Of a stretch of 64,000 bases of DNA, positions 24,051-42,178 are shown piece after piece. Origin of the DNA: Limnochorda pilosa (lineage in GTDB: Bacteria > Bacillota > Limnochordia > Limnochordales > Limnochordaceae); NCBI RefSeq assembly GCF_001544015.1, contig NZ_AP014924.1, forward strand, positions 3,534,001-3,598,000, in the 5' to 3' direction. The notes beneath the pieces are model-generated. The model had not been told where the DNA came from. It worked only from the letters and a program-made list of their open reading frames with translations, and did no database searches. The first letter of the stretch is position 1. Each line of letters begins with the position of its first letter. A program made the position numbers and the translations under genes.

Positions 24051-24731
24051 CTACCCGACCGCGCAGCGGTTGGCGCCCGCCTCGAGCTCGGTGGCGTCGC
24101 CTTCGAAGGAGCGGTCCGCCGCGTTCCACTCGACGATTGTCCGATAGTTGGGCGGAGTTTCGGGGATTCGCTGGAGGATGGCCGCTACGAAGGCATCCTC
24201 CGGTTGGCCCAGGAGGGGGCTGCGGGCGCGCACCTCGGCCAGAGACACCGCCAGGGGGCGGCCGTCGAATGCGACCGGCTCCCCCGTGTGACCCGGAAGG
24301 ACCAGGGTCTCCGGCGGCAGCTCGAGGAACCGCTCGAGGGACCGGTACAGCATGCGGGCGTGCGTCTCGATCCGTGCTGGATCCGGCTCTTCCAGATCAG
24401 GCCTTCCCACGCTGGACAGGAAGAGCGTGTCGCCGGTAAAGAGCGTACGCCCGTCCAGGAGGACGCAAGTGCCGCCGCGGCCGCAGACGGTGACCACGGG
24501 CCTGTCTGTAGGAAGGTCCACCGTGTCGAGAACCTTCCCGTCGCCCGCGTTCAGGGCGTCGTACGCATCGACGTGCACGCTCCCCGGTATCGTCCATTCC
24601 CGGTCCGCGGAGCGCCGGATGTCCAGCACCGTCACGGGCTCGCCCCGTTCGAGCATCGCCCTGAGATCCTCCGCGCGTATCCCTTCCCCGTGCGCCACGG
24701 CCTCCCACCCCTTCGAGCGTGTTGCAGTCAT
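24051..24731 (-). CDS. Rhodanese-metallo-beta-lactamase fusion with large internal deletion
   Basis: The N-terminal part (residues 10-85) is a rhodanese domain with VTVLDIRR, GSVHVDAYDAL and VVTVCGRGGT. It then passes directly into LLDGRTLFTGDTLFLSSVGRPDL, the middle of a metallo-beta-lactamase-fold hydrolase, and ends PPNYRTIVEWN. The HxHxDH metal-binding half that should lie between is missing, an in-frame loss of roughly 150-170 residues. The 226-aa product is therefore probably inactive as a hydrolase. The family normally handles persulfides or thioesters. ATG start at 24731 with a weak Shine-Dalgarno sequence. Confidence 0.65.
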   Translation of the reverse strand: MTATRSKGWEAVAHGEGIRAEDLRAMLERGEPVTVLDIRRSADREWTIPGSVHVDAYDALNAGDGKVLDTVDLPTDRPVVTVCGRGGTCVLLDGRTLFTGDTLFLSSVGRPDLEEPDPARIETHARMLYRSLERFLELPPETLVLPGHTGEPVAFDGRPLAVSLAEVRARSPLLGQPEDAFVAAILQRIPETPPNYRTIVEWNAADRSFEGDATELEAGANRCAVG

Positions 24732-24736
24732 CCTGG

Positions 24737-24960
24737 CTATCGACCCGGCGCGCCGTTCGGCCCTTCCCATGGATCCGGGCCGACGCGGGCAGCCCCGGCA
24801 GCGGCCGTGAGCCAGTCCGGATAGCCCTCCCGCAGGCGCCGCGCCTTTCGGCCGTGAGCCCTGAGGATTTCCACGGCCTCGTCGGCAAAGAGGCAGTAGG
24901 GCCCCCGGCAGTAGGCGACGACCTCCTGCCAACCACCACGGAGGATGTGACCAGCCGGCC
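24737..24960 (-). pseudogene. Rhodanese C-terminal fragment
   Basis: Between proS and the rhodanese-MBL gene one minus-strand frame reads VVAYCRGPYCLFADEAVEIL and LREGYPDW before a TAG at 24739-24737. This is the active-site (CRGPYC) and C-terminal end of a rhodanese like those fused to ArsR domains. No start codon or N-terminal half is present. The next gene starts 5 bp after its stop, so both may derive from one decayed sulfur-transfer locus. Confidence 0.55.
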
Positions 24961-26801: not shown

Positions 26802-27266
26802 TCATCGCGCCTCTTTCAGCCAGCCTTCGATCTCGTCGCGGGGCACAACGCCGTATCGGGCATCCACCAGGCGCCCGCCCGGCGCCAAGACCGCGACGAA
26901 GGGGTGGCCCCGGAGGTCGAAGTCCCTGGCGACCTGGTAGCTGTCGAGAGGTCGCCCGGGATCGACGTCGACGTAGGTGTAGCGAAGGGTGTCGCCATAC
27001 GTCTCGCGCACGGCGGCCATCACGGGCCGCATCTGAAGACAGGCCTGTCAGTACATGAGGGTGCCGTCCGGCATCGGATGCGGTTTCGTCGTGTAGACGA
27101 AGACCAGGCCAGGACGGCTGTCGGTGTAGGCCTGAAGGCGCGTGCCGGCCTCGGTTCCACCCCCGTTCCCCGCACGTAGGTACGCGGTGACGGCTGCGCC
27201 CACGAGAAGGACGAGGAGCGCGGCTCCGCCCGCCCAGAACGACCTCGATCGTCCACGTCCCGGCAT
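26802..27266 (-). CDS. Membrane-anchored thioredoxin-like protein, probable selenoprotein (UGA at active site)
   Basis: The frame from ATG 27266 has a membrane anchor (about residues 9-28) and a thioredoxin fold, with an in-frame TGA at 27050-27048 as codon 73. Beyond it the same frame continues as QACLQMRPVM, then VDVD, a GHPFVAVL cis-proline loop and a terminal helix, ending at a true TGA (26804-26802). The UGA sits exactly where the first Cys of CxxC is expected, giving U73-Q-A-C76. A hairpin meeting bacterial SECIS rules follows. Product 154 aa. The alternative is a nonsense mutation. AGGGGG supports the ATG. Redox partner unknown; the anchor places the domain outside the membrane. Confidence 0.68.
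27013..27050 (-). promoter_or_regulatory. SECIS-like hairpin downstream of the in-frame UGA
   Basis: In the mRNA, UGA (27050-27048) is followed after 23 nt by a six-base loop CGUGAU closed by a perfect six-pair stem, GCGGCC (27030-27025) with GGCCGC (27018-27013). The second loop base is G. Published bacterial SECIS criteria (upper stem 4-16 bp, loop 3-14 nt with G in the first two positions, 16-37 nt from UGA to loop) are all met. Confidence 0.55.
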
Positions 27267-27651
27267 GACGCTCTTCCCCCTCAGCGCGTCTTCACACGAC
27301 CCTTTGCTGATCCCGTCCACCCTACCCCGTTCGTCTGGGCGCGTCCAGACCCTGCGCTCCCGGCGGGGCACGTCGCTGAGACTCCTCTCAGGATCCGGCG
27401 GATACGATCCGTGCGGGCTTGACGCAGCGGTTGTTCTCGAAGCTGCCCGCCGGGTCTTCGCGACGCAGGGCTTCAAGCGGGCCAGTCTGGATGACGTGGC
27501 CCGGAAAGTGGGCATCGGCCGGGGTACCATCTACCGTCGCTTCCCCACCAAGGAGGCGCTGCTGGAGGCTGTGGTCCGCCTGGGCGAGCGGGAGGTCATC
27601 GCGCGGCATCAGGGTGAACCCCTAGCCAGCTGGTCCAGCTTGAGGGCGTAG
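27265..27651 (+). pseudogene. Truncated TetR-family regulator
   Basis: The C-terminal 75 codons read VLEAARRVFATQGF, ASLDDVARKVGIGRGT and IYRRFPTKEALLEAV, a clear TetR helix-turn-helix domain. The frame then runs straight into the end of the convergent DUF4058 gene and stops, so the ligand-binding domain (over 100 residues) is lost. No well-placed start codon precedes the domain; the ATG at 27265 overlaps the divergent thioredoxin start. It is probably non-functional. Confidence 0.55.
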
Positions 27652-28405: not shown

Positions 28406-29740
28406 CTACGATGTCCGTTTCTCGCCCGCCCGGTACGCCTCGTCCAGCAGCTCCACGGGGTGGCGCACCTGGAGCTCCAGGCCGGCGCGGCGGGCGCCCT
28501 GCTCAAGCTGCATCATGCACCCGGGGTTCCCGGTGGCCACGATTCGGGCGCCGGAGCCCGCCACGTGCGCCACCTTGCGCTGCTGGAGGCGCCTCGACAT
28601 CGCGGGCTCGGTGAGGTTGTAGATGCCGGCGCTGCCGCAGCAGACCTCGCCCTCGGGCAGGTCCACCAGCTCGATCCCCGGGATGGAGGCCAGGACCCGC
28701 CGGGGCTGCTCCCGCACCCCCTGTCCGTGAGCCAGGTGGCACGCGTCGTGGTACGCCACCCGGGCCTGGATACGCCCTTCGGGAGCCTCCAGGGGAAGCT
28801 CGGCCAGGAGCTCGGAGACGTCCTTGACCTTGGCGGCGAAGGCAGCGGCCCGCCCCGCATACGCAGGGTCGTCGGCCAGGAGCTCTCCGTACTCCTTCAG
28901 GGTGGAGCCGCACCCGGCCGCGTTCGCGACCACCACGTCCACGCCCGCCGCCTCGAAGGCGTCCAGGTTGCGACGAGCGAAGGCCTTCGCCTTCTCCCGG
29001 GCGCCCGTGTGCTGGTGGAGGGCGCCGCAGCACCCTTGGGCACGGGGCACGGCCACCGTGCACCCGTTCCGCTGGAGCACCCGCACCGTCGCCTCGTTGA
29101 CGGGCCCGTAGACCACGGACTGGACGCACCCCGCCAGGAGCCCCACCCGCAGCCGCTCGGTGCCCTGGGCCGGGTTCTCCTCGGGGAGCCGGCGCCAGCG
29201 AAAGGCCGGCGGAAGCCGTGGGACGAAGCCGGCCAGGTCTCTCAGGAAGGCCGGAAGCAGGCGCGCCACCTGCGGGACCAGACGCTCAACGGCCCTGAGG
29301 AGTCGGAGCGGCATGAAGGCCCACTCCAGGCGGGACCGGTAGGGGAAGAGCCGATCGCGCATCCAGGCGAGGAGACGCCGGGTGCGAGCGGGGCGCAGGC
29401 CCTTCCCTTCCAGCTCCACCCGGGCCTGCTCCAGGAGGTGGTGGTAGTTCACCCCCGAGGGGCAGGCGGTCTCGCACGCCCGGCACTCCAGGCAGAGGTC
29501 GATGTGGCCCACGGCCTCGGGGGTCCACTCCAGCCGGCCCTCGACCACGGCCCGCATCAGGTGGATCCGGCCTCGGGGCGAGTCGGCCTCCGAACCCAGC
29601 TCCAGGTAGGTGGGGCAGGCCGAGGAGCAGAGCCCGCAGTGGACGCAGGTGAGGAAGGCCGGATCCAGGGCGCCCGGGAGGGCCGGCCCCTTTCGGTCCC
29701 GCACCGCCGTCTGCTCGGCGGTGGAAAGGATGCTCGCCAC
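28406..29740 (-). CDS. glcF: Glycolate oxidase iron-sulfur subunit
   Basis: The 444-aa subunit has two N-terminal 4Fe-4S motifs (CVHCGLCSSACP and CLECRACETACP) and two CCG domains (QGCCGALHQHTG and GEVCCGSAGIYNL) typical of GlcF. It passes electrons from the flavin subunits to the quinone pool. The GTG has GAGGAGGGG seven bases upstream and lies 12 bp after glcE. With RuBisCO in the same window, oxidation of glycolate from photorespiratory phosphoglycolate is a plausible role. Lactate oxidation is an alternative for this family. Confidence 0.88.
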   Translation of the reverse strand: MASILSTAEQTAVRDRKGPALPGALDPAFLTCVHCGLCSSACPTYLELGSEADSPRGRIHLMRAVVEGRLEWTPEAVGHIDLCLECRACETACPSGVNYHHLLEQARVELEGKGLRPARTRRLLAWMRDRLFPYRSRLEWAFMPLRLLRAVERLVPQVARLLPAFLRDLAGFVPRLPPAFRWRRLPEENPAQGTERLRVGLLAGCVQSVVYGPVNEATVRVLQRNGCTVAVPRAQGCCGALHQHTGAREKAKAFARRNLDAFEAAGVDVVVANAAGCGSTLKEYGELLADDPAYAGRAAAFAAKVKDVSELLAELPLEAPEGRIQARVAYHDACHLAHGQGVREQPRRVLASIPGIELVDLPEGEVCCGSAGIYNLTEPAMSRRLQQRKVAHVAGSGARIVATGNPGCMMQLEQGARRAGLELQVRHPVELLDEAYRAGEKRTS

Positions 29741-29752
29741 GATGACCCCTCC

Positions 29753-31195
29753 TCAGAGACCCCCCACGAACCGTCCCGGATTGAGGATCCGGCGGGGATC
29801 GAGCTTCTCTTTGAGCGCGCGCATCAGGGGAAGGGTGGCGGGGGGTGGGTCCCAGATCGGCAGGGCCTGCCGCACCGGAGGCGGGCCGTGGCGAAGCACC
29901 ATGCTGCCGCCTAGCCGGGCCGCCTCCTCCAGGAGCGCCCGCCCTGCCGCCTCCAGGGCGGGGGGCGGGCCGGCCACGTGCAGGGCCACCCCCCCGTTCC
30001 CCGCGTGGGTGTAGGCCGCGAACCGGGCGTTTTCCCTCTCCGTGACGTCACGGGCGAACGCGAGGAACCCGGCCACCTGGTCGCTCATGAGGGAGGCGTA
30101 AAACACGGCTCTCCCGTCGCCCGTGGCCCCGGCGAGCGGAAGCCGGTGCCCTGCGAGCAACGCCTCGTGCACGGCCTCCCACGGCGGGTCGGTGGGCCGG
30201 AAGAGCACCTCCCGAAGGTCGCGCGGAAGAGCGGCAGGCCCCCGCCCTCCAGCCGCGCCCTCGAGAGGCTCCATCTCCGCCGTGCGCAAGGGCTCGAGCA
30301 GCCGCCGGACCTCCTGGTGCTGCCACGCGGTCCGTCCCTCGGTCCCTTCGAAGCCCGCCAGGAGCCACGGCAGGTTGATCCGGGGGTCGTCCGCCGCAAG
30401 GCCCAGCGCCTCTACCACGAGCCGCGCCGGGCCGCCGTCGTCCTTGGATGCTGAAGGCTCCGTTTCCAAATGGAGTTTCCGGCCGTCGCGCCCGCCGATC
30501 CAGAAGGCCTCCAGGAACGCCGGCTCCACCGGCGAGTCCATGATACGGGCCACAGCGGCCTCCAACGCCCGAGGACCCGGCAGCGGCACCGCGGCCACCC
30601 GCCGGGACGGGGCCACCGGCCGGGTCTTGAAGGTGACCTCGGTGATCACGCCCAGGGTTCCCAGGCTGCCCACATAGACCTTGCTCAGCTCGTACCCGCT
30701 CACGTTCTTGACCACCCGGCCTCCCGCCCGGGTGATGGTGCCGTCGGGGCGCACCACCTGGACGCCCAGCACCCAGTCGCGCAGGCGCCCGTAGGCGAAG
30801 CGCCGGGGACCCGAGAGCCCCACCGCCGTCATCCCGCCCACGGTGGCCTCAGGCAAAACCGGGGGATCGAAAGGCAGCTCGTGACCCGCCTGCCCCAGCC
30901 GCGCCGCCAGGTCGCCCCAGCGCACCCCCGCCTGGACCGTAACCGTCATGTCTTCGGGACGGTGTTCCACCACCCGGTCCAGGCGGGTCAGATCCACCAC
31001 CCGGGCCGGCGCGGGGAGGATGGCGTGGCCCAGCACCATCTGGGTTCCGCCGCCCCACGGCCGTACCGATGCCCCTGCCTCCCACGCGCCCCGCAGCGCC
31101 TCCGACACCTCTTCCACGGATCGGGGGTGCAGCACGCAACCCGGCTCGCCCTCGCCCAGGCCGGGGAGCGTAAAGGTTGCCGTCGCTTCCGCCAT
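29753..31195 (-). CDS. glcE: Glycolate oxidase FAD-binding subunit
   Basis: The 480-aa FAD-linked oxidase of the PCMH type carries VRPWGGGTQMVLG, VGGMTAVGLSGPRRFAYG and a VVKNVSGYELSKVYVGSLG FAD-contacting stretch, and it ends ILNPGRF. It is longer than typical GlcE (about 350 aa) through an expanded C-terminal half. The ATG at 31195 has GGAGG seven bases upstream. It is the second gene of the glcD-glcE-glcF operon, all minus strand and tightly spaced. Confidence 0.83.
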   Translation of the reverse strand: MAEATATFTLPGLGEGEPGCVLHPRSVEEVSEALRGAWEAGASVRPWGGGTQMVLGHAILPAPARVVDLTRLDRVVEHRPEDMTVTVQAGVRWGDLAARLGQAGHELPFDPPVLPEATVGGMTAVGLSGPRRFAYGRLRDWVLGVQVVRPDGTITRAGGRVVKNVSGYELSKVYVGSLGTLGVITEVTFKTRPVAPSRRVAAVPLPGPRALEAAVARIMDSPVEPAFLEAFWIGGRDGRKLHLETEPSASKDDGGPARLVVEALGLAADDPRINLPWLLAGFEGTEGRTAWQHQEVRRLLEPLRTAEMEPLEGAAGGRGPAALPRDLREVLFRPTDPPWEAVHEALLAGHRLPLAGATGDGRAVFYASLMSDQVAGFLAFARDVTERENARFAAYTHAGNGGVALHVAGPPPALEAAGRALLEEAARLGGSMVLRHGPPPVRQALPIWDPPPATLPLMRALKEKLDPRRILNPGRFVGGL

Positions 31196-31275
31196 GGGTG
31201 TGCCTCCTGTCCGTACAGGACCAGCCCCGCCGCCGTCCCGCTTCCCCAACGCGCCTCACTCGCCCGCGCCCTGCT

Positions 31276-32703
31276 TCAGGCCGGCGCCGCCGCCCGGGGC
31301 CGGCGCACCTCGACGCACGAGCGGGCCGAGGGGAAGATCTTCCCCGGATTGCAGCGGCTGTCCGGGTTGAAGACGTCGTGGACGTCGAGCATCACCTGCA
31401 GGTCGTCCTCGCTGAAGAGCCGTCCCAGGTGGCTCTTCTTCTCGATGCCGACCCCGTGCTCGCCGGTGAGCGCGCCCCCGAGCTCGATGCACGCCTCGAG
31501 CAGCTCGTCGCTTGCGGCCAGGACCCGCTCCACCTGCTCCGGGTCCCGCTCGTCGTAGAGGAGCAGCGGGTGGATGTTCCCGTCGCCCGCGTGGAAGACG
31601 TTCGCGATGCGGATCCCGTGACGCCGGCCCACTTCTTCCGCCCTGGCCATGATCTCGGGCAGGCGGCTGCGGGGCACCACCCCGTCCTGGGTGACGTAGC
31701 TGGGGCTGAGGCGCCCGACGGCCCCGAAGGCCTTCTTGCGGCTGGCCCAGAGCTTCGCCCGCTCACGGGCATCCCGAGCGGTTCGAACCTCCCGCGCGCC
31801 GTGCTCCCGGAAGACCGCCTCCACCCGCTCGCCTTCCTCGGGAAGGCCTTCGGCGGGGCCGTCCAGCTCCACGATCAGCACCGCCCCCGCATCCAGGGGG
31901 AAGCCGAAGCGGAAGGCGGCCTCCACGGCCTGGATCACCAGGTGGTCCATCATCTCCAGGGCGGCCGGGATGATTCCCCGGGAAATGATCCCCGAGACGC
32001 AGCGGGTCGCGTCCTCGACGCTCTCGAAGACGGCCAGGTACGTCTTCCACGCCTGGGGGTTCCGGGTGAGACGGACCGTCGCCTCGGTGACGATCCCGAG
32101 GGTGCCCTCGCTCCCCGTGATCAGCCCCACCAGGTCGTAGCCGGGCGGATCCTCCTGAGGCCCACCCAGCTCCACCACCTCACCCGAGGGAAGGACCACC
32201 TTCAGACCCAGCACGTGGTTGACGGTGACGCCGTACTTGAGCGTATGGGGCCCGCCCGAGTTCTCGGCCACGTTGCCGCCGATGGTGCAGGCGCCCTGGC
32301 TGGAGGGGTCCGGCGCGTAGTGATACCCTTGCTGCTCCACGGCCTGGCTCAGGTGCAGGTTCACCACCCCCGCCTGCACCACCGCCCGCCGGTTGCGCAG
32401 GTCCACCCGCAGGATGCGGCGCATGCGGGCCAGGGAGATCTGGACCACGCCCGGCTCCGAGAAGGTGCCCCCCGACAGGCTGGTCCCGGCACCCCGGGGC
32501 ACGAAGGGGACGCCGCGGTCCTTGAGGAGCCGCACGATGGAGGCCACCTCCTCGGTGGTCTCGGGCAGCACCACCAGCTCGGGCTGGTTGCGGTAAAGGG
32601 TGAGGCCGTCGCATTCGTAGACCAGGAGCTCCTCGGGGCTTGCGAGCACCCGTTCGGTTCCCAGCAGTGCCCGCATGCGCTTGACAAGCTCAGAATCGAT
32701 CAT
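31276..32703 (-). CDS. glcD: Glycolate oxidase FAD-linked catalytic subunit
   Basis: The 475-aa subunit has the PCMH FAD domain (FVPRGAGTSLSGGT, CTIGGNVAENSGGP, GLITGSEGTLGIVTE) and the FAD-oxidase C-domain with VFHAGDGNIHPLL and GEHGVGIEKK. It oxidises glycolate (or D-lactate) to glyoxylate (pyruvate). The ATG at 32703 follows GGGGGTGGAGG. It is first in the operon; the divergent asnB gene starts 237 bp away, so promoters for both must lie between. No clear promoter boxes were picked out. Confidence 0.88.
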   Translation of the reverse strand: MIDSELVKRMRALLGTERVLASPEELLVYECDGLTLYRNQPELVVLPETTEEVASIVRLLKDRGVPFVPRGAGTSLSGGTFSEPGVVQISLARMRRILRVDLRNRRAVVQAGVVNLHLSQAVEQQGYHYAPDPSSQGACTIGGNVAENSGGPHTLKYGVTVNHVLGLKVVLPSGEVVELGGPQEDPPGYDLVGLITGSEGTLGIVTEATVRLTRNPQAWKTYLAVFESVEDATRCVSGIISRGIIPAALEMMDHLVIQAVEAAFRFGFPLDAGAVLIVELDGPAEGLPEEGERVEAVFREHGAREVRTARDARERAKLWASRKKAFGAVGRLSPSYVTQDGVVPRSRLPEIMARAEEVGRRHGIRIANVFHAGDGNIHPLLLYDERDPEQVERVLAASDELLEACIELGGALTGEHGVGIEKKSHLGRLFSEDDLQVMLDVHDVFNPDSRCNPGKIFPSARSCVEVRRPRAAAPA

Positions 32704-32940
32704 GCCTCCACCCCCTCGGCTACCCCACCAGGCACCGGCGAGACCGGCGATGCCCCGCGGTCCGGCCTTGCTCCACATCCTTCACGGTATTGGAGAGCAT
32801 TTCGCCATCGATACGGGTGATGCCTTTCGGAACCTTCCTGTTTCGGCCCCCCCCGGCCCGCGGTTCGGGGAGGGGAGTCACACCCGGGTCCCGGGCGGCG
32901 TACCGTGCCAGCGGAGTCCTGGGGAAGGCGGTGGCGAGAC

Positions 32941-42016: not shown

Positions 42017-42027
42017 GCTCCATCGAC

Positions 42028-42129
42028 TCTCATCTCTCCGGGGTCTCCGGCAGGAGTTGGCACCTCACACCCCACGGGTGTCGGTTGCCGGGCTTCATCG
42101 GGCCTGTCCCTCCGCCTCTCTGGATGAAA
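42028..42129 (-). promoter_or_regulatory. SAM-I (S-box) riboswitch aptamer
   Basis: The minus-strand RNA contains the S-box core: AGAGAGGCGGAGGGACAGG, then GATGAAGCCCGGCAACC. The P1 helix joins TTTCATC (42129-42123) with GATGAGA (42034-42028). Length (102 nt) and order of elements fit the family. SAM binding would favour the following terminator and shut off metNIQ. Confidence 0.92.
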
Positions 42130-42178
42130 GCACCTATGCGATTGTCGACGAAGGCGGCACCGGCCGCCACTTGCTGCC

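Follow-up and report, generated by a model that had tools for sequence, protein, structure and literature searches.

A gene in a 64,000-nucleotide stretch of the Limnochorda pilosa genome (the window, meaning the whole stretch of DNA analysed here) very probably encodes a selenoprotein. Three features argue for this: a frame split by TGA, the full selenocysteine (Sec) machinery of the genome, and a conserved, co-varying hairpin of the SECIS type. A literature search found nothing linking Limnochorda with selenocysteine.

An in-frame TGA in a thioredoxin-like gene

The gene, thioredoxin-like with a predicted membrane anchor, occupies positions 26802..27266 of the window on the minus strand; an earlier note on this DNA had given the coordinates correctly and left the strand unstated. 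It starts with an ATG at 27266 and ends with a TGA stop at 26804-26802, and translation with TGA as U gives 154 codons plus stop, with the product MPGRGRSRSFWAGGAALLVLLVGAAVTAYLRAGNGGGTEAGTRLQAYTDSRPGLVFVYTTKPHPMPDGTLMY-U-QACLQMRPVMAAVRETYGDTLRYTYVDVDPGRPLDSYQVARDFDLRGHPFVAVLAPGGRLVDARYGVVPRDEIEGWLKEAR, in which U is codon 73. As had been claimed from the letters alone, this TGA (27048..27050, minus strand) is the sole internal stop and falls at the CxxC position (U-Q-A-C), where it aligns with the catalytic Cys of homologues and would be read as Sec73. The frame is otherwise intact, and GC content by codon position is coding-like both before the TGA (0.68/0.60/0.78) and after it (0.77/0.46/0.84). 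Gene prediction that takes no account of Sec would yield a stub of 72 residues and/or a fragment lacking its N-terminal part.

For the upstream half, a membrane anchor and a good ribosome binding site had been proposed. The anchor stands, predicted at about residues 10-31 (27174..27239, minus strand) from a plain hydrophobic stretch, and a low-confidence model has a helix at residues 10-34. As a ribosome binding site, the purine-rich GAGGGGGAAGAG before the start codon (27267..27290, minus strand; GAGGGGGAAGAGCGTC-ATG) is no better than moderate. Besides the anchor, the first half contains a strand with F56/Y58, which are conserved among the nearest relatives.

Judged by sequence matches, the window protein is a member of the thioredoxin superfamily. 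The TrxC model (PRK10996, E 1.1e-5) and PF00085 (E 8e-4) match residues 72-153, TIGR01068 also matches (E 1.3e-4), and the best solved relatives are thioredoxins. The homology starts with the TGA codon and extends as far as residue ~153, in line with the earlier claim that it continues past the stop. The UxxC motif is followed by the second half of the fold with its cis-proline, and P122 is invariant in the alignments. The matches are distant: the TrxA/TrxC equivalog cut-offs are missed (TIGR01068, 22/96.8 bits; NF008229, 25.2/125 bits), no NCBIfam model touching the protein reaches its cut-off, and the SaoT (NF040730) and HUIPC (NF047660) models give no match at E<=1. A single-sequence AlphaFold2 model had a pLDDT of 46.5, too poor for fold comparison or fold search.

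The genome encodes the Sec machinery

All four of selA, selB, selC and selD are present in the genome, which is assembled as one contig of 3,817,036 bases and is 99.95% complete. The earlier note had named absence of the whole machinery as a refutation of its reading, and the complete set excludes this. SelA is encoded once (3692069-3693409, minus strand), beside a selB that scores above the curated cut-off (3690905 onward, minus strand). A second selB, selB2, also above the cut-off, lies at about 373498-375463 (plus strand). There are two tRNA-Sec genes with anticodon UCA (3500497-3500588, minus strand, and 373376-373470, plus strand) and two selD genes (selD at 3420759, plus strand; selD2 at 368797-369723, minus strand), each of which has its own in-frame TGA in the active site (G-U-A-S-K). 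A genome of the same genus (86% complete) had neither a selB above the cut-off nor a gene of the window type.

By established bacterial Sec biology, SelD would make selenophosphate and SelA would convert Ser-tRNA-Sec to Sec-tRNA-Sec. SelB bound to the hairpin would then bring Sec-tRNA-Sec to the UGA, giving the full 154-residue protein when the cell is selenium-replete; without selenium, translation would yield a useless 72-residue stub.

Relatives carry TGA or Cys at the same codon

The window protein served as the query against 398 genomes of the phylum, and its best relative as the query of a second round. At the codon in question, 13 related genes of other genomes have TGA and five others have TGC/TGT, giving UGA kept in 13 homologues and aligned with Cys in 5; the earlier note had suggested looking for such Cys homologues. 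Four of the TGA relatives form the nearest group (L082, L083, L090 and L091), at only about 26-34% identity to the window protein, and the other nine belong to a wider circle of anchored thioredoxins (L024, L026, L027, L031, L042, L043, L088, L092 and L103), as do the Cys versions (L023, L025, L032, L036 and L085). In the nearest group, the gene of genome G048 reads VFIYTDPTPEKV-U-MPCEEMKPVM, that of G081 reads VIFVYSDPTPHHPDG-U-GRCEEQKPVM and has a lipoprotein-like N-terminus, and L091 of G213 reads LIFLYVDENSDKPGK-U-TSKKMLPVV, that is, UxxK. L090 of G352 contains a further stop in frame, a TAA, and is perhaps a pseudogene. UxxK in place of UxxC in L091 and L090 is of the selenophosphate synthetase motif type and is unusual in a thioredoxin-like protein.

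At the level of the class (73 genomes), the gene group was found in its own genome only, and the orders to which G081 and G048 belong yielded no more close members when searched. Scans of genome contigs for named relatives gave no match; the alignment of ten diverse members is too divergent for a contig scan.

A SECIS-type hairpin is conserved with the TGA

The published bSECIS rules call for a loop of 3-9 nt with G in its first two positions, a stem of 4-16 bp, a spacing of 16-37 nt from the UGA and an MFE <= -7.5 kcal/mol (PMC13188914). The window gene has such a hairpin at 27013..27030 (minus strand), GCGGCC-CGTGAT-GGCCGC, with a 6-bp stem, a 6-nt loop whose G is at position 2, and an energy of -12.0 kcal/mol. 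The distance from the TGA to the start of the loop is 23 nt, and the earlier claim of a rule-abiding hairpin at this distance is thus borne out. By itself the hairpin is not significant (P about 0.08-0.14): an equal or better one is found at 8% of TGA triplets within the 69% GC window, and random synonymous recoding equals it with P=0.14.

The evidential weight rests on conservation of the hairpin across the family, and here the case is strong. In all 14 TGA genes a hairpin lies in register at one distance, near the published bacterial SECIS model, and the combined synonymous-recoding P is 5e-9, a value overstated by the relatedness of the members. In the five Cys genes the hairpin is poor or missing. 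Among the 13 genes tabulated, anchored at the loop, stem pairs 1-4 are formed in every one, with G-C, A-U, U-A and U-G at pair 4 and C-G, G-C and U-G at pair 5. When the 3' arms were dealt among the members, as many pairs arose in 0.015% of shuffles (P 1.5e-4), or in 0.8% when distinct rows alone were used (P 0.008). The hairpins of L082 and L083 are weaker than the published limit, with 4-bp stems and a local energy of -4.8 kcal/mol over 30 nt. Rfam SECIS_1 had no match in the genome, nor in any of 14 control genomes, and is hence uninformative.

These observations bear on three other readings of the TGA, which we considered and rejected. The gene could be a pseudogene, a CxxC thioredoxin whose first Cys codon, TGC/TGT, was mutated to the nonsense codon TGA; indeed it is short and divergent, seems to form a transcription unit by itself and adjoins a truncated-looking TetR gene. 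However, 13 other genomes have TGA at this codon, the host decodes Sec, and past the TGA the frame remains intact and coding-like. Together with a hairpin that is both conserved and co-varying, this makes decay of this kind very improbable. A sequencing or assembly error at an ordinary Cys codon is conceivable with only a single assembly to hand, but the genome is one almost complete contig, and the error would have had to hit exactly the codon that relatives also have as TGA, ahead of a co-varying SECIS hairpin. We give such an error hardly any credence.

Readthrough of UGA by Trp-tRNA is known among bacteria generally, and this precedent is what could be said for a TGA read as Trp or by leaky termination. 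Against it, the TGA stands where the fold has its catalytic Cys and some homologues do carry Cys, the genome contains two tRNA-Sec genes, and the hairpin lies at SelB distance; we regard this reading as exceedingly unlikely. Decoding as Sec is the reading we retain.

A second Sec cluster in the host

A second Sec cluster lies at about 368.7-377 kb of the host's own genome (L045, L049 and L050). Here selB2, 40% identical over its full length to selB1 (the copy beside selA), is directly behind the second tRNA-Sec, between two genes for UGSC-family selenoproteins (QCD-U-GSCTSWLV), and an UshA-like gene and selD2 are nearby. The UshA-like gene (L049, 372379-373339, plus strand), a relative of UshA-like (seleno)proteins, is just before the second tRNA-Sec; it matches NF041198 with E 2e-39, below the cut-off, and its product ends EKCGC-stop, the Cys form. 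Close to the cluster, at 362.7-367.2 kb, a second glcF/glcE/glcD-like set was recognised by eye; the window has glycolate oxidase genes of this glcF/glcE/glcD-like kind at 28406-32778 (minus strand).

Among the matches listed, this is the only one of the 73 class genomes with two selB above the cut-off. Two tRNA-Sec genes have been described in eight bacterial genomes (PMC5330540), and multiple tRNA-Sec are thus known; our literature search did not find a report of two SelB systems. A host with a second, divergent selB and its own tRNA-Sec is probably more surprising than the window gene, and there are possibly two SECIS-SelB systems in this one cell. Such a host, in which selB and tRNA-Sec genes each occur twice, would be a natural test of SECIS-SelB orthogonality within one cell, which is also of interest for engineering Sec insertion.

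Possible function and gene neighbourhood

The neighbours of the two nearest relatives suggest a role in the redox work of sulfur-amino-acid (cysteine/methionine) metabolism. The gene of G048 is downstream of cysK, LarE, two cystathionine lyase/synthase-type genes, a ThiF/MoeB-type gene and a CymR-like regulator, and that of G081 follows two cystathionine lyase/synthase-type genes, with cysK about 5 kb off; this link offers a testable function. In the wider circle, a DsbD_TM protein is encoded directly downstream of the TGA gene L027 (genome G132), and a DsbD/CcdA-type membrane carrier is likely the reductant in the wider family.

The window gene itself has as neighbours an MFS transporter, ProRS, a truncated TetR gene and DUF4058, and neither cysK/met genes nor a DsbD gene lie beside it. 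Since these neighbours differ, we can only infer the substrate and donor of this copy. All that the TetR frame (27142-27651, plus strand) contains of TetR is the DNA-binding domain (PF00440), positioned towards the end of the frame, which overlaps the DUF4058 gene; the TetR gene accordingly looks truncated. Elsewhere in the window, at about 24051-24820 (minus strand), a sequence that begins like a rhodanese passes without a break into what reads, by eye, as a metallo-beta-lactamase-like second half (..VCGRGGTC-VLLDGRTLFTGDTLF..), as if an internal piece had been lost. The Rfam scan of the window had one match, a SAM riboswitch (RF00162, 87.9 bits) at 42027-42130 (minus strand).

We propose that the N-terminal helix would tether the thioredoxin-fold domain outside the cytoplasmic membrane, where the protein would act as an extracytoplasmic thiol/disulfide reductase. 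Sec73 would act as the nucleophile on a disulfide, or on sulfur oxidised in another way, and would then be resolved by Cys76. The protein could instead be a selenoprotein with another main job outside the membrane, for example reduction of peroxide or of sulfane sulfur (persulfide/polysulfide). Sulfur-assimilation genes do adjoin the nearest relatives, and UxxK in two relatives means that their branch can do without the second Cys. The window protein, however, retains UxxC together with a thioredoxin fold by sequence match, and a DsbD-type carrier is encoded alongside one member of the wider family; such a job is possible, although we consider disulfide reduction the better account.

A broader hypothesis joins these strands. 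The window protein and its nearest relatives (in G048, G081, G213 and G352) might be an as yet unnamed envelope thioredoxin-like family, so far Sec-only and with one UxxK branch, that serves sulfur-amino-acid metabolism, and that in this host relies for its decoding on one of two separate Sec-insertion systems (two selB with 40% identity; two tRNA-Sec) which divide the selenoprotein mRNAs by SECIS type. Taken jointly, these proposals are speculative and we think them doubtful as a whole.

Comparison with known selenoproteins

The earlier note had called the protein a probable new selenoprotein. The assignment as a selenoprotein is upheld, whereas "new" has to be tempered: thioredoxin-like UxxC selenoproteins are already established, in the thioredoxin (PF00085), thiol:disulfide interchange (PF13098), SaoT and HUIPC groups (PMC13188914), and seven Trx selenoproteins were already given in PMC1794560. 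The subgroup itself has no NCBIfam model. From its sequence, the window protein is best filed as a divergent addition to a known kind of selenoprotein with an ordinary decoding mechanism, by which the prokaryotic selenoproteome would gain a divergent, probably uncatalogued group.

With the UxxC thioredoxin selenoproteins of the PF00085 class, which PMC13188914 lists as experimentally verified, the window protein shares the thioredoxin fold expected from its sequence matches, a very probable Sec at the first active-site position and a bSECIS just past the UGA. It differs from them in scoring only 22-25 bits against model cut-offs of 97-125, in its added membrane anchor, in the long and variable segment PHPMPDGTLMY that precedes the active site, and in having HP at the cis-proline site, where I/T-P is usual. 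The UxxC thiol:disulfide interchange selenoproteins of the PF13098 class are, like the window protein by its predicted location, extracytoplasmic thioredoxin-like oxidoreductases, but the match of the window protein to this class is weak (E 0.04, under the gathering score). SaoT and HUIPC are likewise small UxxC thioredoxin-like selenoproteins, and the HUIPC model matches the relative L082 far under its cut-off (16.7/105 bits). The anchored UxxC/CxxC thioredoxins (L024, L027, L031, L088 and others) share their layout with the window protein, having in common with it the N-terminal anchor, the U/CxxC motif, the codon and the position of the SECIS. Whole-protein identity to these is only about 18-24%, and the DsbD_TM gene that follows L027 has no counterpart behind the window gene.
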